Source: Acidithiobacillus marinus (lineage in GTDB: Bacteria; Pseudomonadota; Gammaproteobacteria; Acidithiobacillales; Acidithiobacillaceae). From it: a DNA stretch of 64,000 nt. This document shows positions 13,689 through 22,154 of this stretch, piece by piece. The translations under genes were made by a program, and so were the position numbers. Under the pieces are notes generated by a model. That model saw only the letters and a list, made by a program, of their open reading frames with translations. It was not told the origin of the DNA and ran no database searches. The stretch spans positions 62,001 to 126,000 of the forward strand of contig NZ_MXAV01000034.1 of NCBI RefSeq assembly GCF_002847505.1. Direction: 5' to 3'. Position 1 is the stretch's first letter. Each line of letters starts with the position of its first letter.

Positions 13689-13730
13689 TGTCATGACGCG
13701 CGCTAGCAGATGTCATGACGTGTCATGATT
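13689..13730 (+). promoter_or_regulatory. Three TGTCATGACA-like boxes (candidate enhancer sites)
   Basis: TGTCATGACG occurs at 13689-13698 and 13711-13720, and TGTCATGATT abuts the second at 13721-13730. They lie about 110-150 bases upstream of the -24 element of a sigma54-type promoter, the normal distance for enhancer-binding proteins. The same box occurs in tandem beside the regulator gene at 20724. An IHF-like match with one mismatch (13787-13799) sits between boxes and promoter in an AT-rich stretch. Confidence 0.7.
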
Positions 13731-13837
13731 AAGGATAGTCAGTACCCAGAATGAAGTACAAGGCGAATTTTATGTTTATAATTAAATAACAAATAGTTAT
13801 ATATAAATTTACGATTTTCTTTGGCTGTTTTTCATGT

Positions 13838-13852
13838 TGGCCTCTTTCTTGC
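13838..13852 (+). promoter_or_regulatory. Sigma54 (-24/-12) promoter of the DUF3034 gene
   Basis: TGGCCTCTTTCTTGC has the invariant GG (13839-13840) and GC (13851-13852) exactly 10 bases apart and a TTGC -12 element. Transcription would start near 13864. A short inverted repeat (GAATGTT/AACATTC, about 13865-13883) lies at the start of the predicted leader. Confidence 0.75.
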
Positions 13853-13911
13853 TTTTGTGACCATGAATGTTTTTTTAACATTCAAGAATCGCTTAACGGC
13901 TAGGAGGAGGT

Positions 13912-14985
13912 ATGAAAATGAAAAGTAAGACTGCGAAGTCACCTGCTACAAAAGTAGTTATCGTGGCGATGGCTTGTGCGCTTGGTGGGTTGGCTCCAGT
14001 TGCAGCTAGTGCAGCTATAGGATCTTCCTGTTTGTTTGGCCAGGGTCGTATCCTGGGTACAGGTGCCGTAACAGCAGTGGACGGTGCTGCTGGTGGTGGT
14101 ATCAACCCCTGGGCCGTGATTTCCGGTTATGGTACGAATCAGCAGATAGGCGCCACAGCCTTTTATTCTCACGTATTACTGAATAATTATAATCTCAATG
14201 CTTACGGTGCATCAGTCGGAATATTTAATCGCATTGAAGTGTCATTTGCTCGGCAGGGATTCAGTTTAGGTAATACCGGTCAAACACTGGATCATCGTAT
14301 TCTCAGCGTCGTGAGTGGAAAGCCGGTTCCTTTGGGAACATCCACCACTTCCGCGGCTCTTGGATTGAGCGGACCAGCATTTTTTGGCAGCAATTATGAT
14401 TTGAATCAGGATATTGTTGGCCTGAAAGTCAGACTTTTTGGCAACATCGTCTATGACCAAAACTGGTGGGAACCTCAAGTATCCGTTGGCGTGGACTTTC
14501 ACCACAATGAAATGCCTAAAAATTTAGCAGATACGTTGCATGTGAAACGTAATGGTGTCAGTTATTATTTGTCAGCTACCAAAGTATGGCTCAATGGTTT
14601 GTTTGGTTTAACGACCTTGGCAGACGTGAATATTGATGTGACCAACGCTAACCAGCAAGGGCTGTTGGGTTTTGGCGGCGTCAATGGTATGCGTTATAAG
14701 GTTGTTCCGGCGGCATCGGTAGGCGTTTTCCTGAATCGTCATGTGGTATTGGGCGCCGAATATCGGGGAATGCCCCAAAACCAGTTGATTGCACCGTCCA
14801 GCGGGGCCGGGAATTTCAGTACATTGGGGAATGCCGTATCCAAGACCAGCGCCTGGAAAGACGTCTACGTGGCCTGGTTCCCCTATAAACAGCTTTCTCT
14901 GACTGCGGCTTATGTGGATCTCGGTACTATTGCTACGGAAAAGAACCAGAACGGCCTGTATCTGTCTCTGACCACCAGTTTCTGA
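13912..14985 (+). CDS. DUF3034-family outer-membrane protein
   Basis: 357-residue exported protein with a signal peptide (cleaved near ASA-AIG). The segment LGTGAVTAVDGAAGGG followed by alternating beta-strand patterns and a C-terminal aromatic residue (LYLSLTTSF) resembles the DUF3034 family of predicted outer-membrane barrels. Function of the family is not established. AGGAGG lies just before the ATG. It is preceded by a sigma54-type promoter and TGTCATGACA boxes and is followed after 26 bases by a truncated haemoglobin gene, so the two are probably one transcript. Because the boxes are shared with the dsrE-tusA-sqr operon, a role in sulfide or sulfur metabolism is plausible. Confidence 0.8.
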   Translation: MKMKSKTAKSPATKVVIVAMACALGGLAPVAASAAIGSSCLFGQGRILGTGAVTAVDGAAGGGINPWAVISGYGTNQQIGATAFYSHVLLNNYNLNAYGASVGIFNRIEVSFARQGFSLGNTGQTLDHRILSVVSGKPVPLGTSTTSAALGLSGPAFFGSNYDLNQDIVGLKVRLFGNIVYDQNWWEPQVSVGVDFHHNEMPKNLADTLHVKRNGVSYYLSATKVWLNGLFGLTTLADVNIDVTNANQQGLLGFGGVNGMRYKVVPAASVGVFLNRHVVLGAEYRGMPQNQLIAPSSGAGNFSTLGNAVSKTSAWKDVYVAWFPYKQLSLTAAYVDLGTIATEKNQNGLYLSLTTSF

Positions 14986-15011
14986 TCTCACCCAATTACG
15001 AGGAGTTTAAT

Positions 15012-15485
15012 ATGTTTGCACGTACTTCTTCCCGTCTGTCGGCCATCAGCAAGGGTGTTGCTCTGGCGGCAGGTTTGACGGCAGTTTCCCTGATGGGGAT
15101 TTCGACGGCATCGGCGCAGGATTATTATGCCCAGTATGGCGGTAAAGCAGGTATCACGGCGCTCATCAATACTTTTGTGGGTAATGTGGCCGCCGATCCT
15201 CATATCAATTACTACTTTGCTCATGCAAATATTCCGCAACTAAAATATCAACTGGTGCAACAGGTCTGTATGGCTGTGGGTGGACCCTGTAAGTATACCG
15301 GGCCGAGCATGCGCAAAGTGCATCAAGGCATGGATATTACCCAATCCGCATTCAACTATCTGGCCCAGGATATGATGAATGCCATGCAAACCCGCCGGAT
15401 TCCGATGGCCGCCCAGAATTACCTGATTGCCATCCTGGCTTCCATGGAACCGCAAATTGTGACCGCCAATGGCCCCTTGGGTTGA
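15012..15485 (+). CDS. Exported group 1 truncated haemoglobin
   Basis: 157-residue protein with a clear signal peptide (hydrophobic core ALAAGLTAVSLMG, cleavage near ASA-QDY) joined to a truncated-globin domain. The YAQYGGKAGITALINTFV start, the HINYYFAH segment and the later KVHQGMDI with a candidate proximal histidine fit group 1 trHb. Most truncated globins are cytoplasmic, so export is unusual. It likely binds oxygen, NO or sulfide in the periplasm. It has its own ribosome site (GAGG before ATG) and probably shares the upstream sigma54 promoter; a terminator follows. Confidence 0.85.
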   Translation: MFARTSSRLSAISKGVALAAGLTAVSLMGISTASAQDYYAQYGGKAGITALINTFVGNVAADPHINYYFAHANIPQLKYQLVQQVCMAVGGPCKYTGPSMRKVHQGMDITQSAFNYLAQDMMNAMQTRRIPMAAQNYLIAILASMEPQIVTANGPLG

Positions 15486-15551
15486 CCAGCGGATGACGCG
15501 ATAAAATGTTCATTGTAGTCTCCTCCTCCCGCTAGCAAAATCGGGAACTTC

Positions 15552-15580
15552 AGGCTCCATCCCGGATGGGGCCTATTTTA
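15552..15580 (+). terminator. Probable terminator after the truncated haemoglobin gene
   Basis: GGCTCCATCC and GGATGGGGCC can form a stem of at least 8 pairs (one G-T), followed by TATTTTA. It closes the DUF3034-globin transcript. Confidence 0.65.
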
Positions 15581-15649
15581 TGAGAACCGGTATCCGTTGT
15601 TGTAAATACAGTTTATCAGCCCAAAAAGTAGCTACTAAGGAGATGTCTC

Positions 15650-16186
15650 ATGAAAAAAATATATCAACATACCCTGGCTGTAGCGGTTGTATTGGCTGCC
15701 GCTGGTTGTGGAACCAATCCTTTTGCCTGTGCACCGGGCATTCCGCCGGCGGCCCCGGCGGCTCCCGCAGCCAAACCTGCTCCGGCACCGAAGATTGCGC
15801 CCGTGCAACATACGGTTCTGGAAAGCAAACCTATTACCATCACCGGAATCAATTTTCAGACCAATTCTTCCCGGCTGATCAGCCATGATATTGCGGTATT
15901 GGATCAGGTGGCTGATTTTGCGCACAAACATGCGGATGCGGTGCTGGATGTGAATGGTTACTGCAGTAAAACCGGGAGTTTTGCCTACAATCAGAAACTG
16001 TCCGAGGAACGGGCACAGAGTGTCGCTGGTTATCTGGAAGCCCACGGGGTAAATGCCTCACGGATTGTGACCAAAGGTCATTCCTATCTGGATCCGGTGG
16101 CCAGCAATGCGACCGCCAAGGGCCGATTCATGAATCAACGTGTAGAAATCAATTCCAGTATCAAGGTGCGCAAAACCGTACAATAA
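15650..16186 (+). CDS. OmpA-family peptidoglycan-associated lipoprotein
   Basis: 178-residue protein with a lipoprotein signal (AVVLAAAGC), a Pro/Ala-rich spacer (about residues 28-48) and a C-terminal OmpA/Pal domain (about 55-178). Peptidoglycan-binding features (NFQTNSSRL, GYCSKTGS, NQKLSEERAQSVAGYL, NQRVEI) are visible, with one cysteine in the domain. It should tether the outer membrane to the wall. It has an AAGGAGA ribosome site and is flanked by terminators, so it looks like its own unit. Confidence 0.88.
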   Translation: MKKIYQHTLAVAVVLAAAGCGTNPFACAPGIPPAAPAAPAAKPAPAPKIAPVQHTVLESKPITITGINFQTNSSRLISHDIAVLDQVADFAHKHADAVLDVNGYCSKTGSFAYNQKLSEERAQSVAGYLEAHGVNASRIVTKGHSYLDPVASNATAKGRFMNQRVEINSSIKVRKTVQ

Positions 16187-16221
16187 TCTGCTGTTCCATT
16201 AAACTTCAGGAGACTGATATA

Positions 16222-16256
16222 GGCAATACAGCTTCAGGTATTGCCTGTTGATTTTT
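16222..16256 (+). terminator. Probable terminator after the OmpA-like gene
   Basis: GGCAATAC (16222-16229) and GTATTGCC (16238-16245) form a perfect 8-base stem with an 8-base loop, followed by TGTTGATTTTT. Confidence 0.7.
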
Positions 16257-16289
16257 GGGGTAAAAAATTGTCTGAAGGAGAAATATAGC

Positions 16290-16715
16290 GTGCGGAAATT
16301 CCTGAAAATCATGATCTTGGCAGGCATGTCAACTAGTATTGCTGCCTGTGGACTGTTTAACAGTTCGGGTCCGGAAAATGTAGCGATGCATTTTGTGCAT
16401 GGCATGGCAAAAGGAGATATTCAGCAAGTCGACAAGCTGGTGTATTGGGGACCGGAAATCCATAACTCTGCACAGCCTTATGCCCTGCGTCTTGAAGAAG
16501 CGAAGGTCAATGGCTATGTGATGGCTACCTATCAACGTCTGCAGGCTGATGGAGGATTGAAAGAAGCCAAGATAGTCAAAAATGAGCACACCCTGGTCAA
16601 TGGCGTAGAGCATGCGACGATTGTTATTCAGTTGATTCCCAAAAAAGGGGCCCCAAGAGATACGACCCTGCAAATGCTGCGACGAGACGGAAAATGGTTC
16701 GTGAGTGTGGACTGA
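16290..16715 (+). CDS. Lipoprotein, DUF4878-like (NTF2-like fold)
   Basis: 141-residue predicted lipoprotein with a lipobox ending SIAAC. The body resembles small DUF4878/NTF2-like lipoproteins (ENVAMHFVHGMAKGD ... TTLQMLRRDGKWFVS). A GTG start at 16290 is chosen because GAAGGAG lies 9 bases upstream; the longer frame from 16248 runs into the preceding terminator region. Its end overlaps the next gene by 22 bases, so the two are coupled. Function unknown. Confidence 0.7.
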   Translation: MRKFLKIMILAGMSTSIAACGLFNSSGPENVAMHFVHGMAKGDIQQVDKLVYWGPEIHNSAQPYALRLEEAKVNGYVMATYQRLQADGGLKEAKIVKNEHTLVNGVEHATIVIQLIPKKGAPRDTTLQMLRRDGKWFVSVD

Positions 16716-17212
16716 CTGCTTATCTGCTGGTTCGTGAGGGGCTGGGAGTGGAGGCGCGTCTGGTGCGCCTCAAGGACCGTGGACCCTGGACGCATGTGGG
16801 GCTCATGGTTGGCGGCACGTTATTTGAAAGTGTGCCGTCAACGGAACGTACCCATGGAGGTGTGCGGGTGGGGAGGTTGGCAGAATTTTCTGCAGCAGAA
16901 CGGGCAGTGAGCGTGGGATATGTACCGATCTCCCTCGTGGAACCTCAGTGTCAAAACCTGTTTCGCTGGTGTCAGAAACAGGTAAAAGCGCAGATTCCTT
17001 TTGATGATCTCTATAACCTGGAGGATGACCGGACATTGTATTGTACGGAATTTGTCTACAAGGCTTTTTTGCAGATTCACATCAACCTGCTCTCGGCTGA
17101 ACTCAGCAGTTTATCCATCCCCCTTGTCGGTAAGAGAAAAGTGATTTTTCCGCGTGATTTGATTGGCATGAAGCCTGTTTCTCATAATCTTCATGTTCTG
17201 AATCAGGGATGA
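16694..17212 (+). CDS. YiiX/YebB-like NlpC/P60 (permuted papain-fold) protein
   Basis: 172-residue protein with the hallmarks of the permuted papain-like (DUF830/YiiX) family: a histidine in WTHVGLMVGG and a cysteine in LYCTEFVYKAF. Members are thought to be cysteine hydrolases or amidases acting on cell-wall or lipid amide bonds. No signal peptide is visible. It overlaps the preceding lipoprotein gene by 22 bases. The substrate is unknown. Confidence 0.75.
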   Translation: MVRECGLTAYLLVREGLGVEARLVRLKDRGPWTHVGLMVGGTLFESVPSTERTHGGVRVGRLAEFSAAERAVSVGYVPISLVEPQCQNLFRWCQKQVKAQIPFDDLYNLEDDRTLYCTEFVYKAFLQIHINLLSAELSSLSIPLVGKRKVIFPRDLIGMKPVSHNLHVLNQG

Positions 17213-17298
17213 TTTCAGCGAAAAGGCGCGGCTGCCATAACTATATTCATTCAGACAAATTTAATGAGATTTTTTTGCCGCCGGTTTTGAAATTTTGC

Positions 17299-17314
17299 AT
17301 CTATCCGGATAGAT
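17299..17314. promoter_or_regulatory. 16-bp perfect palindrome before the HiPIP gene
   Basis: ATCTATCCGGATAGAT is a perfect palindrome about 60 bases before the HiPIP start, in an otherwise AT-rich leader. This is a candidate operator for an unknown dimeric regulator. Confidence 0.35.
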
Positions 17315-17372
17315 ATTCCGTATACCTTAGTGGGCCTAACAGCCTCTTTTTTATTATCTAGGAGAATGTGTT

Positions 17373-17663
17373 ATGAAATCCATGAATCGTCGTGAATGGT
17401 TGAAATCCACCGGAAAAATAGCTGCCACTGTTGCTGTCGCCCCCTTGGTGTTTTCCTCAATGGCCCATGCGGGAACTGCGGATAGTTTGCAAAGTAAAAG
17501 CTCCGTGAGTTATCAAAATCATCCCAGCGGGAAAGATATGTGCTGTAACTGCACGCATTTTGTACCTGGAGCATCACCCAAGGTGGACGGTACCTGCAAG
17601 GTGGTCGCTGGAAAGATCAGTCCCCATGGTTATTGTTTTGCCTACACACCCATTTCCGATTAA
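17373..17663 (+). CDS. High-potential iron-sulfur protein (HiPIP)
   Basis: 96-residue periplasmic electron carrier. A twin-arginine signal (NRREWLKSTGK, cleaved near AHA-GTA) precedes a small HiPIP domain with four cysteine ligands in CCNCTHF, GTCKVV and HGYCFAY, where the extra cysteine in CCNC is unusual. It resembles the Iro-type HiPIPs of Acidithiobacillus. It probably carries electrons between a quinol or sulfur oxidase step and a terminal oxidase. TAGGAG lies upstream of the ATG. A palindrome upstream may control it. Confidence 0.93.
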   Translation: MKSMNRREWLKSTGKIAATVAVAPLVFSSMAHAGTADSLQSKSSVSYQNHPSGKDMCCNCTHFVPGASPKVDGTCKVVAGKISPHGYCFAYTPISD

Positions 17664-17674
17664 TCAGCAGATAT

Positions 17675-17700
17675 AAAAAAGCCCCTCAACATCAGGGGCT
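17675..17700 (-). terminator. Rho-independent terminator of the dsrE-tusA-sqr-DUF1641 operon
   Basis: On the minus strand AGCCCCTGATG and TTGAGGGGCT form a stem followed by six T residues, 40 bases after the DUF1641 stop. On the plus strand no T-tract follows, so it mainly serves the minus-strand operon. Confidence 0.88.
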
Positions 17701-17740
17701 GCAAGCGGGGCGAGTAGAACGCTTTAAAAAGATTATTTGA

Positions 17741-18544
17741 TCAGTGTTTCAGTCGGCAGGAGCGGAAGTGTTTGCCGACCAGCATGAGGAACTGGATGGT
17801 TTGCTGGGTTTCGGGCTTTTTCATCATCTCCCACAGGCCGCCAATGCCGCCCTTGGGGGCAGGAGCACTAGCGGCCTCTTCGGTGGCACCGCTGAGGCAA
17901 TGCAGGAAATCGGTGAGAATATGATCCTGGTCCATTTTCTCAGCGACGCCGAGCAGCCGGTCCATGACCCCGGTTCGTGTTGCCCGGTCCAGGAGACACA
18001 TGGCATCAGTGGCCAGAGAAGCGAGACGGGATACCATTTCATCACTCATGGAGTCACCGGCCGCTCCGGCCATACGGGCCAGATGCACAATGCGCTCCAG
18101 ATCCCCGTTTTCCACCAGTGCCGAGATGGCCGGCAGGGCATTGGCAATCTGACTGCGATTTACCCGATCCAGTAAGTCCAGACCATCACTGGCCAGACCC
18201 GCCAGACGTCCGACCATTTCATCACTCATGGAATCGGCAGCGGCACCACTGAGACGGGCCAGATGCACGATGCGCTCCAGATCCCCGTTTTCCACCAGGG
18301 AGCTGATGGTCGGCAGGGCACGGGCTACCTGACTGCGGGTCACCTGATCCACCAGATCCAGACCATCACTGGCCAAGCCAGCTAAGCGGCCAACCATCTC
18401 ATCACTCATGGAGTCCGCTGCTGCACCACTGAGGCGCGCCAGTTGCACAATTCGCTCCAGATCTCCGTTCTGCACCAGATGCACCAGTGCATCCTGGGCA
18501 CGTTGCAGTTCATCCTGAGAAGTTTCTGCCATGACTGCAGCCAT
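17741..18544 (-). CDS. DUF1641 protein with three tandem 60-residue repeats
   Basis: 267-residue protein, last gene of the sqr operon (11 bases after sqr). Three near-identical repeats of exactly 60 residues (180 bases) are visible, each holding NGDLERIV, LARLSGAA, DSMSDEMV and RLAGLASDG; they cover about residues 25-210. The C-terminus (about 230-267) differs. DUF1641 proteins are often encoded beside sulfide:quinone oxidoreductases, but their role is not established; a scaffold or partner of SQR is a fair guess. No signal peptide or membrane segment. GAGGAGGTG precedes the ATG. Confidence 0.85.
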   Translation of the reverse strand: MAAVMAETSQDELQRAQDALVHLVQNGDLERIVQLARLSGAAADSMSDEMVGRLAGLASDGLDLVDQVTRSQVARALPTISSLVENGDLERIVHLARLSGAAADSMSDEMVGRLAGLASDGLDLLDRVNRSQIANALPAISALVENGDLERIVHLARMAGAAGDSMSDEMVSRLASLATDAMCLLDRATRTGVMDRLLGVAEKMDQDHILTDFLHCLSGATEEAASAPAPKGGIGGLWEMMKKPETQQTIQFLMLVGKHFRSCRLKH

Positions 18545-18555
18545 ATGTCACCTCC

Positions 18556-19695
18556 TCAGAGTAAACCACGGGCAGTCGCCCAGTAGAGTTTGTTATAAGA
18601 CATCTTGAAAGCGTGAACAGCACCAGTAGGTGCCTTGGGCTGAGGAGGCGTTTTGTAATCGAACATGGCATAAGTTGCCCGATCCTTGCCTGCCTCGATG
18701 AAGCAAAACACCTTGCCATCGTAGCTTTTTACCGGCCGCCCCATTTTGATGACTGCCGCCACATTCTCGGCAGCCGTTTCTGCCTCAAAGTGTGCGGTGG
18801 AACCCGCCTTGCTGATGGGTAGATTGGTGGTATCGCCGAGAACCAGAACATTTTTGCCATGTTCGCCTTCCATGTGCAGGGAAGAACGATTGGTGGGAAT
18901 CCAGCCATTTTCGCCCAGGCCGTTTTTCTCGATGACCTCCTGACCCTTGTGGGGAGGTACAGCTACCAGCAGATCATATTTGACGGCACCCCCTTCCTCG
19001 CTCAACACTTCCGCGTTTTTACCGTCCACTTCCTTCATATTAAAAAGGGTTTCGTACTTGATACCCATCCGGTCAAATTCCGGTGCGGCCCACTTGGCGA
19101 CATTTTCCAGGCTGTGCACGCGACCGATGGGGTAGGTGTAGTAGAATTCCGTTTTATCCAGCAGACCGCGATCCTTGATGAAGTCGTGCATGGCAAAAGT
19201 GATTTCCAGGGGAATCATCGGGCACTTGTGGGGCAGGCCCACCGTAATCATAATGCGGCCACCCTTGAAGTCCGACAGTTGCTTGAAGAATTCCACGGCA
19301 TCGTCGGCAGTGTAGCAGTTGATGGAATTTTCCTTGAGGCCGGGGATTTTCTCGGGCAAGGGCCGCGAGCCGGTCGAAATGACAATCAGGTCATATTCAT
19401 GAACCTTCCCGCTTTTGCACTTGACGTGATTCTCGGCCAGATGAAATTCTTCGACGGGGTCCACATGAAATTCAATGCCTGGCTCCAGCAGGCTTTGCTG
19501 CTCCCGGACCAGCTCGTCGGGAGTGGCGCGCCCCATAGCTACATAGAGCCAGCCCGGCTGATACACATGCTCATGGCTGGCTGACAACATGGTAATGCGT
19601 GCTTTGCCGGTTTTCATTTCATGGTGAATACGCCGGGCCAAGTGATTCGCGAAAATGGTACCGCCCATACCGCCACCTACAACCAGAATTCTCAT
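18556..19695 (-). CDS. sqr: Sulfide:quinone oxidoreductase-like flavoprotein
   Basis: 379-residue FAD-dependent oxidoreductase. The N-terminal dinucleotide motif VGGGMGGTIFA, STGSRPLP and the C-terminal FAD motif VLVLGDTTNLP are clear. Two cysteines fit the SQR active site: one in LPHKCPM and one in KVFCFIE; the third cysteine seen in some classes is absent. It should oxidise sulfide at the membrane and reduce quinone. The start at 19695 follows AAGGAG; an in-frame extension to 19779 has no ribosome site. It lies between tusA and a DUF1641 gene, the usual context. The exact SQR class needs a tree. Confidence 0.87.
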   Translation of the reverse strand: MRILVVGGGMGGTIFANHLARRIHHEMKTGKARITMLSASHEHVYQPGWLYVAMGRATPDELVREQQSLLEPGIEFHVDPVEEFHLAENHVKCKSGKVHEYDLIVISTGSRPLPEKIPGLKENSINCYTADDAVEFFKQLSDFKGGRIMITVGLPHKCPMIPLEITFAMHDFIKDRGLLDKTEFYYTYPIGRVHSLENVAKWAAPEFDRMGIKYETLFNMKEVDGKNAEVLSEEGGAVKYDLLVAVPPHKGQEVIEKNGLGENGWIPTNRSSLHMEGEHGKNVLVLGDTTNLPISKAGSTAHFEAETAAENVAAVIKMGRPVKSYDGKVFCFIEAGKDRATYAMFDYKTPPQPKAPTGAVHAFKMSYNKLYWATARGLL

Positions 19696-19735
19696 GATGT
19701 CACACTCCTTGGGTTGTTTGACCCTGTGATTGTTT

Positions 19736-19966
19736 TTACTTGGCCTTGCGAACCCGGATATGCCAGGTCCCTTCGCCATCCTGTTCAGTGTCTACCATTT
19801 CGTGCCCGACTTTTTTGATCCACTCTGGAACATCAGCTGCGGAACCGGCATCGGTGGATAACAGCTCCAGGGTATCGCCCACCTGCATCATTTTCATGTT
19901 GGAAATCAGTTCCATCAGTGGACCGGGGCAAAAGCTGCCACGGGCATCTACGACGCGTTCACTCAT
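19736..19966 (-). CDS. tusA: TusA-family sulfur carrier protein
   Basis: 76-residue cytoplasmic protein with the TusA signature CPGPLMEL near residue 13, whose cysteine carries a persulfide. It lies between a DsrE-family gene and sqr, which suggests that sulfur from sulfide oxidation is passed from one protein to the next rather than released. A GGAGTAG box precedes the ATG. Confidence 0.93.
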   Translation of the reverse strand: MSERVVDARGSFCPGPLMELISNMKMMQVGDTLELLSTDAGSAADVPEWIKKVGHEMVDTEQDGEGTWHIRVRKAK

Positions 19967-20017
19967 GTGCTACTCCTTACTCGCGCTGTTGGTTATGGGG
20001 ATATCATCAACAAAACA

Positions 20018-20404
20018 TCAGAAAGTCAGAATCTGACCGCCTTCGGCATCGCTGAAAAATTTGGTCAGTCCAAGAGGACCTGCGACGATCTCTTCCATGC
20101 CGTCCTCTTTGACACCGAGGACATCCATGGCCATGGAGCAAGCCCAGATTTTGGCATCTCCCAGCTCCACCGCCTGTTCGAAAATCTGATAGAAGGGAGG
20201 CACTTTGCGTTCCGCCATGGCTTCTCCCAACTTGCCTTCGGCCGGCGCTTCCTTGCTATGCCCTTTAATGAAGTAGGGGAAGGCATTCATGGACAGAAAA
20301 ATATGGACATCAGTCCCAGATACAGCGGCTACCGAAGCCGCCATCGCCGCAAACTGCAGCTTTTCGCGCTCACCGCTCAAGCAAATAATATACATGCCAG
20401 ACAT
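20018..20404 (-). CDS. DsrE-family sulfurtransferase (DsrE2/E3-like)
   Basis: 128-residue DsrE/F-like protein, first gene of the operon. The conserved cysteine lies in [14 protein letters not shown], as in DsrE2/DsrE3-type proteins that trade persulfides with TusA. The N-terminal [14 protein letters not shown] is typical. No clear membrane segment is seen, which favours the soluble DsrE3 type. A sigma54-type promoter lies about 24 bases upstream of the predicted start of transcription to the ATG. It probably acts in the cytoplasm with the neighbouring TusA. Confidence 0.85.
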
Positions 20405-20439
20405 AGAGATTCCTCTTGGTAGTGAATGCCAATTGGGTA

Positions 20440-20454
20440 GCAGTAAATATGCCA
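20440..20454 (-). promoter_or_regulatory. Sigma54 (-24/-12) promoter of dsrE-tusA-sqr-DUF1641
   Basis: On the minus strand TGGCATATTTACTGC has GG and GC exactly 10 bases apart. Transcription would start near 20428, leaving a leader of about 24 bases before dsrE. Confidence 0.72.
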
Positions 20455-20518
20455 GATATACATCGGGACTGTTTTTTTTAAGCTAAACGTTTCATTCCTA
20501 TGTTGAGTTAAAAAATAA

Positions 20519-20531
20519 TAATAATCTGATT
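20519..20531 (-). promoter_or_regulatory. IHF-like site between promoter and enhancer boxes
   Basis: Read on the minus strand, AATCAGATTATTA matches the IHF consensus WATCAR-N4-TTR. It lies between the sigma54 promoter (20440-20454) and the boxes at 20574-20604, the usual place for an IHF bend. Confidence 0.5.
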
Positions 20532-20573
20532 GAACGTTTGACTGTGGTATTTAACCCGGGGGCTTATGAATCA

Positions 20574-20604
20574 TGTCATGACATGTCATGACATGGGCAT
20601 GACA
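20574..20604. promoter_or_regulatory. Tandem TGTCATGACA boxes (candidate enhancer sites)
   Basis: Two perfect palindromic decamers TGTCATGACA abut each other (20574-20583 and 20584-20593), one helical turn apart, and a third, half-conserved copy GGGCATGACA follows (20595-20604). They are about 120-150 bases upstream of the -24 element of the dsrE operon and about 120 bases before the regulator gene at 20724, which is the likely binder. Confidence 0.75.
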
Positions 20605-20723: not shown

Positions 20724-22154
20724 ATGACAAAAGCCGACCAGGCACCGAGGCAAATGATGGATATGCGAAATCGTAATCCCAGTTCTTCCTTAGGACACAA
20801 GTCCACCCAAAAGTCCAAGCCTGCCCTCGGGCTGGATGTACAAAGTGTTTTGAACATCCAGCAAAATCCCATGGTTTTAATTGATGAGCACTATCGGATC
20901 ATTGCGGCCAATCGCGCTTATCAGGAAGCCTATGGTATGCAAGCCGATGAGGTATTAGGGCGTTGCTGTCATGAAATTTCCCATCATTCGCCGGTCCCTT
21001 GTCATATGCGCGGTGAGGATTGTCCCCATCAAGCGGTGTTCACGACGGGCGAGGCCCACGAAGTGCGGCATATTCATTATGACCATCAGAATCATGCGGA
21101 ACACGTGCGTATTCGTGGTCATGCTATAAAAGATCAGGACGGCAATACCTATTTAGGTGAGGAGATTATTCGTCTTCCCCACCAGGATGATGAAATTACC
21201 TGCGGAGAAATGCGCATGGTCGGTCGTTCTCCGGCCTTTCTGAAATGTTTGCATCACATTGAAATGTCTGCCCGCACCGATGCCAGTATTTTACTGTACG
21301 GGGAAAGCGGCGTCGGTAAAGAACTGGCCGCCAGCGCGCTGCACCAGTTTTCCGCCCGGGCTGCGGGAGCCTTTATTACCGTCGATTGTGCCTCCCTTCC
21401 GGAAACCTTGTTTGAAAGTGAAATTCTGGGTCATGAAAGAGGCGCTTTTACCGGTTGTTTGGGGCGCAAGCGTGGTCTTTATGAAATGGCGGATGGGGGA
21501 ACCCTGTTTCTGGATGAAGTCGGTGAGTTGCCGCTGAGCATGCAGGCCAAATTATTACGGGTTCTGGAAACAGGTACCTTTCGGCGTCTGGGGGGGGCGG
21601 AAACCTTGCAGGCGAACGTGCGTATCATCGCGGCGACGAATCGCAATCTGCTGGAAATGGCAGGGCAAAGACAATTCCGTGAAGATCTATATTATCGGTT
21701 GGCCGCTATCACCATCGATCTGCCGCCCTTGCGGGAGCGTCGAGAAGATATTCCCGGCATAGCTTCGGTGCTGCTGGAGCGCATCGGAAAAAGTTGGGGA
21801 GGGCAATGGTCGCTCTCGAAAGAAGCAGAAAAACGTTTATTTGCCTATGATTTTCCAGGCAATGTTCGGGAGTTGCGGAATATTCTGCAAAAAGCGGCGG
21901 CTTTGGCCGATGGGCCGGTTATTCAGGCGAGTCATCTGGATTTTGAGTTACCCCAGCCCAAGGCGGTATCACACCTATCCGTATCTGATGAAGTGAATGA
22001 TTCTGTCATTCGCCCGACAGCGCTGCGCAATGGCGGTCAACCTGATGATCTGGATGGCTTGTTACGTCAATATCGGGGGAATCGTCGTCGGGTTGCCGAA
22101 ATTCTGGGCGTGAGTGAACGAACGGTGTACCGCTGGTTACGACGTGGTTCCTGA
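20724..22154 (+). CDS. Sigma54-dependent enhancer-binding regulator (PAS-AAA-HTH)
   Basis: 476-residue one-component regulator. A PAS domain (about residues 40-145) contains a Cys/His cluster (GRCCHEISHHS, then PCHMRGEDCPH). An AAA+ domain (about 165-395) has Walker A GESGVGKE and Walker [14 protein letters not shown]. The sigma54-contact loop reads GAFTGC instead of the usual GAFTGA. A Fis-type HTH (RRRVAEILGVSERTVYRWL) ends the protein. It is divergent from the dsrE-tusA-sqr operon, with TGTCATGACA boxes between them, so it most likely activates that operon and the DUF3034 gene, perhaps on sensing sulfide or redox state through the cysteines. The start is uncertain: GAGG favours ATGs at 20754 or 20757. 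Confidence 0.9.
   Translation: MTKADQAPRQMMDMRNRNPSSSLGHKSTQKSKPALGLDVQSVLNIQQNPMVLIDEHYRIIAANRAYQEAYGMQADEVLGRCCHEISHHSPVPCHMRGEDCPHQAVFTTGEAHEVRHIHYDHQNHAEHVRIRGHAIKDQDGNTYLGEEIIRLPHQDDEITCGEMRMVGRSPAFLKCLHHIEMSARTDASILLYGESGVGKELAASALHQFSARAAGAFITVDCASLPETLFESEILGHERGAFTGCLGRKRGLYEMADGGTLFLDEVGELPLSMQAKLLRVLETGTFRRLGGAETLQANVRIIAATNRNLLEMAGQRQFREDLYYRLAAITIDLPPLRERREDIPGIASVLLERIGKSWGGQWSLSKEAEKRLFAYDFPGNVRELRNILQKAAALADGPVIQASHLDFELPQPKAVSHLSVSDEVNDSVIRPTALRNGGQPDDLDGLLRQYRGNRRRVAEILGVSERTVYRWLRRGS

Follow-up and report, generated by a model that had tools for sequence, protein, structure and literature searches.

The window, i.e. the whole stretch of 64,000 nucleotides of Acidithiobacillus marinus DNA analysed here, contains a sulfide operon and an operon of a DUF3034 gene and a globin gene, and it raises the question whether both are controlled by the sigma54-type activator that is encoded next to the sulfide operon, as an earlier note on this DNA had proposed. 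We confirmed the positions which this note had given for the regulator gene, the operator-like boxes and both sigma54-type promoters.

Box clusters and sigma54-type promoters in the window

On the DUF3034-globin side, matches to the box start at 13689 (TGTCATGACG), 13711 (TGTCATGACG) and 13721 (TGTCATGATT), which gives a putative operator cluster (13689-13730) of three boxes with spacings of 22 and 10 bp, the 22-bp pair being kept in G001, G009, G010, G015 and G016. The second putative operator cluster (20574-20604) lies between dsrE and the regulator gene and consists of two exact copies of TGTCATGACA at 20574 and 20584, i.e. 10 bp apart, and a third box with two mismatches at 20595 (GGGCATGACA). 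Single boxes with up to two mismatches are no more frequent in the window than expected by chance (33 matches compared to 28.4 +/- 4.9 in shuffles), and we therefore rejected single-box statistics as evidence. Strict box pairs, defined as GTCATGACN{0,28}GTCATGAC, occur at these two places only in the whole genome (2.9 Mb), and the reversed pattern, which served as control, does not occur at all. A looser pair (GTCATGAN{2,32}GTCATGA) revealed one extra place, on one strand, and one control match. Clustered boxes, unlike single ones, are above chance. Only one further exact decamer is present in the genome (C28:244329), located inside a 614-aa open frame and with no second box of up to one mismatch in the 11 kb around it.

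Downstream of both clusters we found the proposed -24/-12 elements, TGGCCTCTTTCTTGCT upstream of DUF3034 (13838-13853, plus strand) and TGGCATATTTACTGCT upstream of dsrE (20439-20454, minus strand), which reach 20/23 and 19/23, respectively, on a hand-weighted consensus score with a maximum of 23. The -24 elements are located 126 bp (DUF3034) and 133 bp (dsrE) from the box centres. A simple scan detected no sigma70 match on the correct strand before dsrE or DUF3034, and the genome has an rpoN-type gene. The dsrE element is identical in five out of eight aligned orthologous promoters, with TGGCA and CTGCT present in all eight, and wherever DUF3034 has a separate promoter, i.e. in six genomes, its element reads TGGCC(C/T)CTTTCTTGCT. 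In the aligned orthologous promoters, boxes and promoter stand out as conserved islands, while the rest of the region drifts.

As for the IHF-like sites proposed between boxes and promoters, the dsrE region has a perfect core match (AATCAGATTATTA; 20519-20531, minus strand), a weak indication given that a match with at most one mismatch in this region is equalled by 38% of mononucleotide shuffles. The site in the DUF3034 region has one mismatch, a site as good being found in 45% of mononucleotide shuffles. IHF may possibly be involved at both promoters, where it would bend the DNA.

The regulator gene and the two operons

The gene at 20724-22154 (plus strand) encodes an enhancer-binding protein with the expected PAS, AAA+ and HTH domains. 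Its AAA+ domain (PF00158, E 2e-63) has a Walker A motif (GESGVGKE) and the GAFTG loop at residue 240, which identify sigma54 enhancer-binding proteins, and its PAS domain has three cysteines, C82-X10-C93-X6-C100. The X10 and X6 spacing of the N-terminal cysteines and the divergent orientation to a sulfide-oxidation operon (dsrE-tusA-sqr) assign the protein to the FisR type; a pdo-like gene, which is a trait of the target operons of described FisR examples rather than part of a strict definition, was not detected between 17741 and 20404. The cysteine arrangement is kept in nine out of nine aligned orthologues and, among the matches listed, in all eight of the nearest named homologues (L157-L164); L152, a close relative (54%), is without these cysteines.

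The sulfide operon (minus strand) begins with dsrE (20018-20404; PF13686/PF02635), followed by tusA (19736-19966; PF01206, E 8e-22), a gene for a type-III-like sulfide:quinone oxidoreductase (SQR; 18556-19695; PF07992) and a gene for a repeat protein (17741-18544), which closes the operon and comes after sqr in relatives as well. The name DUF1641 given to the latter in the earlier note could not be confirmed, as Pfam did not return this match even at E values up to 1. The SQR scores 290 bits against NF049943, which is under the cut-off of 525, and among chains of known structure SQORs come closest to it (E 4e-30). Bacterial SQR structures such as 3sx6 and 3t31, which we take to be the A. ferrooxidans enzyme AFE_1792, match it at E about 1e-3 only. 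Because of this poor match, the mapped sigma70 promoter of A. ferrooxidans sqr AFE_1792, near which no regulator was seen (PMC5506826), was rejected as a contradiction of the regulon proposed here. A. ferrooxidans is described to have a second SQR, AFE_0267 (PMC12016491).

The DUF3034 protein (13912-14985, plus strand; 357 aa; PF11231, E 6e-96) is probably an outer-membrane barrel, as suggested by its signal-peptide-like start and terminal Phe; a single-sequence fold model (pLDDT 28) was useless and set aside. The adjacent gene (15012-15485, plus strand; PF01152) encodes a protein of 157 aa that belongs to the group-1 truncated globins, being HbN-like (2gl3, E 2e-14) with an MRKVHQG motif where the proximal His is normally found, and that has an extra Cys pair. 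Judged by eye from its signal-peptide-like start, the globin is predicted to be exported. A terminator-like hairpin (15552-15574, plus strand), a kind of site no more frequent in this region than in shuffles, perhaps closes the two-gene operon. All 33 loci that we examined across a phylum sample pair DUF3034 with a globin; three exceptions occur within the order.

Boxes, regulator and promoters across genomes

In the order, strict pairs form 25 clusters in 14 out of 31 genomes, with no match of the reversed control in any of the 31, and 22 of these clusters are located beside a regulator orthologue or at a DUF3034-globin promoter; the remaining three (G003:650498, G003:2348631, G012:C82) lie elsewhere. 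An orthologue of the regulator (at least 77% identity) is present in ten of the 17 genus genomes searched and is accompanied by a box cluster in all ten, although such genome counts are not independent, since the species are related. The boxes therefore do track with the regulator, the point on which the earlier note had made its proposal depend. The looser pair matches in 16 of the 17 genus genomes, many matches being at unrelated places and on one strand. Among the homologue loci listed (at least 80), which were retrieved with AAA motifs as query and mostly represent other activators, with L157-L164 used as close homologues, a box pair is present at L159 only.

A similar picture emerges for the promoters, which we assigned ourselves to linked and unlinked groups. 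Where dsrE adjoins the regulator gene or DUF3034, all 16 promoters have at least two boxes and an element scoring at least 19/23, as does a 17th (G021), whose dsrE is about 4.7 kb away from DUF3034, whereas all five unlinked copies of the sqr operon are devoid of both boxes and a -24/-12 element. All 14 tabulated DUF3034 promoters have boxes and 13 of them score at least 19; this promoter is marked by strict pairs in two genera and by boxes on a looser count in a third. The tabulation omits DUF3034 copies with the order globin-DUF3034 and no boxes (G016c, G010c), those of G005 and G014 (the 38% copies), an additional, fragmentary one in G026, and loci truncated by contig ends (dsrE of G001 and G008; G025, G027, G030). 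Paired boxes are absent from the extra DUF3034 copies of G016 and G010, from the 38% copies and from the additional copies of sqr that G003 and G007 carry.

The gene arrangement links the operons, too. The two operons run in opposite directions from a single box cluster between them in G016 (second locus), G010 (C34), G022 and G026. The regulator gene follows DUF3034-globin on the same strand in G021, G022, G026 and G027, and in G029 it is oriented divergently to DUF3034, behind which lies an SQR-like gene. In G009, which has a boxed DUF3034 promoter, no regulator orthologue was found, and this absence is likely an assembly gap, because sqr and leuA (the latter searched at E <= 1e-150) were not found there as well.

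From the position of the strict pairs and the difference between linked and unlinked promoters we conclude that the proposal of one regulon, in which the 20724 regulator would control both the sulfide operon and DUF3034-globin, is well supported by the comparison of genomes. It is likely that the FisR-type protein acts as a one-component activator, which would sense reactive sulfur via its three PAS cysteines, bind the paired TGTCATGACA boxes at both clusters and drive sigma54-RNA polymerase at two operons, namely dsrE-tusA-sqr with the 17741 gene (conversion of sulfide to sulfane sulfur, and sulfur carriers) and DUF3034-globin (a probable outer-membrane protein and a periplasmic group-1 globin).

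The boxes could also be bound by another activator, e.g. the FisR-type paralogue divergent from cydAB (G000:C17:19305), to which the regulator is 43-46% identical. The cysteines of this paralogue are arranged in the same way, it could cross-talk, its divergent neighbour is preceded by a sigma54 element scoring 22/23, and a sigma54 start has been mapped for the A. ferrooxidans cyd operon beside AFE_0957 (PMC5506826). However, paralogue-type matches also occur in G002, G004 and G005, where the sqr promoters are without boxes, and the 16 kb around the paralogue in G000 contain no TGTCATGACA box within one mismatch, and we regard this explanation as unlikely. Alternatively, the regulator might control the sulfide operon alone and the DUF3034-globin boxes might be relics of a promoter that both operons once shared and that a rearrangement later displaced, since a cluster common to both operons in other genomes could have been carried along. 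That the separate DUF3034 promoter has retained its own 22-bp box pair and a near-perfect -24/-12 element in six genus genomes, and has three boxes with other spacings and a 20/23 element in another genus (G017, G018), makes such a relic quite improbable. A chance occurrence of palindromes near AT-rich promoters would fit the lack of single-box enrichment in the window and the presence of strict pairs in 22 of 397 other genomes of the phylum (control: 5/398). With one locus checked per genome, one of these 22 (G249) is a 55%-identical regulator accompanied by boxes and by an SQR-like gene in divergent orientation. Yet chance is an extremely unlikely source of both clusters in the window and of 22 out of 25 pairs at the same two gene sets in the order, with a control of zero.

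Relation to known systems and significance

That FisR is a persulfide-sensing sigma54 activator of sqr operons is already known, and, the 20724 regulator being of this type, the principle is not new. The Cupriavidus FisR targets pdo-sqr, and its third cysteine is C71. Descriptions of the protein from Cupriavidus pinatubonensis JMP134 present it as a sigma54 activator of sulfide-oxidising genes, with "three conserved cys residues" (PMC9774590), of which C53 is linked to C64 (PMC8614764); the polysulfide links reported there thus involve the same X10 spacing as in the 20724 protein. The targets in these descriptions are sulfide-oxidising genes, whereas those proposed here are dsrE-tusA-sqr without pdo and DUF3034-globin. 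In Acinetobacter baumannii, FisR, a divergent sigma54 activator beside pdo1-sqr-tauE, is likewise required for induction by sulfide, but responds without the sensing cysteines, and the sections of this account available to us mention neither globin nor DUF3034 (PMC7315123). The cysteines alone therefore do not settle the signal of the 20724 protein. To the proteins of the five FisR-type loci L160-L164 the regulator is 40-45% identical, which is not more than to its cydAB-adjacent paralogue. These five loci have no TGTCATGACA box pair; their upstream regions contain, by eye, TGGCAG/CTGCCA repeats.

Within the Acidithiobacillia, the cydAB-adjacent paralogue (L150) shares the FisR-type cysteines and a sigma54 element, but has other targets and no TGTCATGACA box within one mismatch; from the gene order, AFE_0957/AFE_0956 of A. 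ferrooxidans looks like the equivalent locus. TspR/TcsR, HupR and NtrC, covered by a sigma54 survey of the class, belong to the same activator class. The survey counted as activators those proteins that combine a sigma54-activator domain with a response-regulator domain, in place of which the 20724 protein has PAS, and the words sqr and globin are absent from the main text of this survey (PMC12194929).

Novelty appears to lie in the operator, in DUF3034-globin as second target and in the pairing of these two genes. Tentatively, DUF3034-globin may be a two-part envelope module of an outer-membrane barrel and a periplasmic haem protein, which is widespread among Pseudomonadota, handles a small reactive molecule and was captured by a FisR-type sensor in the Acidithiobacillia for sulfide or persulfide handling at the envelope, so that the globin might play a role in the sulfide response. 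If true, this envelope module would add a new branch to the response to reactive sulfur. A candidate operator is now concrete for a FisR-type regulator in the Acidithiobacillia, a class in which the handling of sulfide is important for bioleaching, and there is a functional lead for DUF3034-globin, with reactive sulfur as the predicted condition of its expression.

Gene layout and distribution of the paired boxes

The window (G000:C28:62001-126000) belongs to a genome that was grouped with 16 others in one genus, which gene content and published work indicate to be Acidithiobacillus. The regulator gene (20724-22154, plus strand) is oriented oppositely to a minus-strand set of genes, i.e. dsrE (20404-20018), tusA, sqr and a repeat-protein gene. 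The DUF3034 gene (13912-14985) and the globin gene (15012-15485) are separated by 26 bases and followed by a terminator-like hairpin. A small HiPIP-like, Iro-like protein, under both cut-offs, is encoded at 17373-17663 and is found with DUF3034-globin in other genera.

The six boxes (13689-13730 and 20574-20604) and the regulator were found where an earlier note on this DNA had put them. Single decamers are unremarkable: when up to two mismatches are allowed, the window holds 33 of them vs 28.4 ± 4.9 in shuffles, and when up to one is allowed, the whole genome holds 73 vs 37 for the reversed pattern. The strict pair, GTCATGACN{0,28}GTCATGAC, occurs in the window genome only at the two noted places. 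Within the order, 14 of 31 genomes carry it, with 25 clusters in all; 22 of these clusters adjoin the regulator or lie at DUF3034 and three lie elsewhere, and the reversed control gave none. The looser pair is less clean, with matches in 16 of the 17 genus genomes and many elsewhere on one strand. In a phylum sample of 398 genomes, the strict pair was present in 23, including the window genome, and the control in five; when one locus from each of the 22 others was scanned with the window proteins, one (L315) had matches, namely a regulator of 55% identity, boxes and a divergent SQR-like gene.

Two stray strict pairs were located in the genus genome G003. The one at 650498 falls at the start of a pilus-like gene (read by eye), and the one at 2348631 is flanked by a membrane-protein-like frame and by a gene whose product has trypsin and PDZ domains, a stretch shared by G012 (contig C82), where it makes up the third stray pair. 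This HtrA-like gene is adjoined by a box pair 35 bp apart (L145:4631-4675 and L146:5658-5702); a regulator orthologue was not found in G012.

Boxes accompany the regulator, as the earlier note had expected: an orthologue of at least 77% identity is encoded in 10 of the 17 genus genomes, all 10 of which have a box cluster beside it, and the best matches in the other seven (42-46%) represent a paralogue group. Of the 14 genomes of the order that belong to other genera, 11 encode an orthologue of 57-75% identity. The orthologue of G016 (L125:5064-7900) is split by about 1.4 kb, with three boxed promoter regions still kept there, and that of G006 contains one in-frame stop.

Promoters and linkage of the two operons

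The -24/-12 promoters proposed beside both box clusters were confirmed as elements 126 or 133 bp from the cluster centres. The promoter table covers the 400 bp preceding each of 22 dsrE or tusA genes and 14 DUF3034 genes; these come from related species, so that the counts are not independent. Sigma54 elements were scored with a hand-weighted consensus (uncalibrated, maximum 23). All 16 dsrE genes adjoining the regulator or DUF3034 have clustered boxes and scores of 19-22, and both features are also present at the dsrE gene of G021, about 4.7 kb from DUF3034. All five unlinked dsrE or tusA copies, two of which are second copies in regulator-bearing genomes, lack the boxes and the element (best near-gene scores 11-15). 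Boxes precede 14 of the 14 tabulated DUF3034 genes, 13 of them with scores of at least 19 (the exception, G021, reaches 17); the copies left out of the table include DUF3034 of G016c, G010c, G005 and G014, and at least four left-out copies are without paired boxes. The box spacing is 10 bp in most dsrE promoters, and 22 bp where DUF3034 has a promoter of its own within the genus. In eight aligned dsrE upstream regions, the boxes and the -24/-12 element form the conserved islands.

The two operons are also linked physically. At the second locus of G016 and on contig C34 of G010, they run outward from a single cluster of three boxes, and each operon has a sigma54 element of its own. In G022 and G026, from another genus, the two diverge from a single region rich in boxes, with the regulator gene following DUF3034-globin on the same strand. 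In G029, from a second family, the regulator is divergent from DUF3034, the next gene after DUF3034 is SQR-like but of a different type, and the boxes are weaker. Regulators of 51-54% identity from Hydrogenophilus, Thiobacillus and Hydrogenophilales (L157-L159) adjoin a divergent Pyr_redox_2 gene, SQR by reading, with one, two and three TGTCATGAC-like boxes, respectively, and good -24/-12 elements by eye; the boxes of L158 and L159 overlap the start of the called frame. Based on box tracking, promoters and linkage, the predicted joint control of dsrE-tusA-sqr and DUF3034-globin by the regulator through the boxes is strongly supported by genome comparison.

Likeness to FisR and proposed mechanism

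The regulator has the architecture of a PAS-AAA-HTH activator with GAFTG, and its PAS domain contains C82-X10-C93-X6-C100, an arrangement kept in nine of nine aligned orthologues. According to a citing paper (PMC8614764), C53 and C64 of Cupriavidus FisR become joined by a tetrasulfide, and the X10 spacing of C82 and C93 equals that of these two residues; three conserved cysteines are given for FisR in a review (PMC9774590). FisR-type proteins of five further Betaproteobacteria (L160-L164) share the arrangement of the window regulator. The FisR-type gene of Burkholderia latens is divergent from Lactamase_B, Pyr_redox_2 and TauE genes, an order that equals pdo-sqr-tauE of A. baumannii as described in PMC7315123. 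Because cysteine arrangement and divergent sulfide-gene context match the FisR examples, the window regulator is, by sequence, FisR-like in build and setting. By descent, the paralogue beside cydAB in the window genome could be the nearer equivalent of FisR. This C-X10-C-X6-C activator (L150:7276-8604) is encoded divergently from cydAB and from a gene that Lactamase_B matches only weakly (E 0.005, short of the cut-off), and has a sigma54 element scoring 22 of 23 and different upstream repeats.

For the window regulator, analogy with FisR suggests that reactive sulfur would modify the PAS cysteines. The protein would then bind the observed paired boxes and contact sigma54-RNA polymerase across the approximately 130 bp that separate boxes and elements, possibly with IHF at the dsrE promoter, and both operons would be induced. 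Sulfide would be dealt with by SQR and sulfur carriers, and globin and DUF3034 may act in the envelope on a putative ligand.

The DUF3034-globin module and previous descriptions

DUF3034 is encoded in 39 of the 398 genomes of the phylum sample. At all 33 loci examined, the window locus included, it directly adjoins a globin gene (L251-L280, L353-L355; 33 of the 39 genomes); within the order, G005, G014 and G029 are exceptions, as no globin was found near their DUF3034 relatives in the stretches covered. The pair forms a two-gene module, apparently undescribed so far. Outside Acidithiobacillia, for example at L344, L345 and L347, it often lies near a dCache-GGDEF-EAL protein (cluster member at 15 of 20 loci) and a small, weakly cupredoxin-like protein (12 of 20), labels that derive from Pfam on a few members. 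The globin has a signal-peptide-like start, and among solved chains it comes nearest to mycobacterial HbN. The DUF3034 protein ends in a terminal Phe and, judged by its sequence, looks like an outer-membrane barrel.

A 2025 sigma54 survey of Acidithiobacillia counted as activators proteins with a response-regulator domain, and a PAS-type protein would therefore be missed; sqr and globin are absent from its main text (PMC12194929). Mapping in A. ferrooxidans assigned sigma54 starts to tet and cyd, and a sigma70 start to sqr AFE_1792 (PMC5506826). The available parts of a sulfur-oxidation review (PMC6335251) and a 2025 SQR study (PMC12016491) describe no such regulator, and a mostly titles-level look at literature on FisR in Acidithiobacillus, DUF3034, the decamer and Acidithiobacillus sqr/dsrE/sigma54 found no description of the regulon. 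This kind of system is already known; the parts that appear new are the operator and the globin-DUF3034 target.
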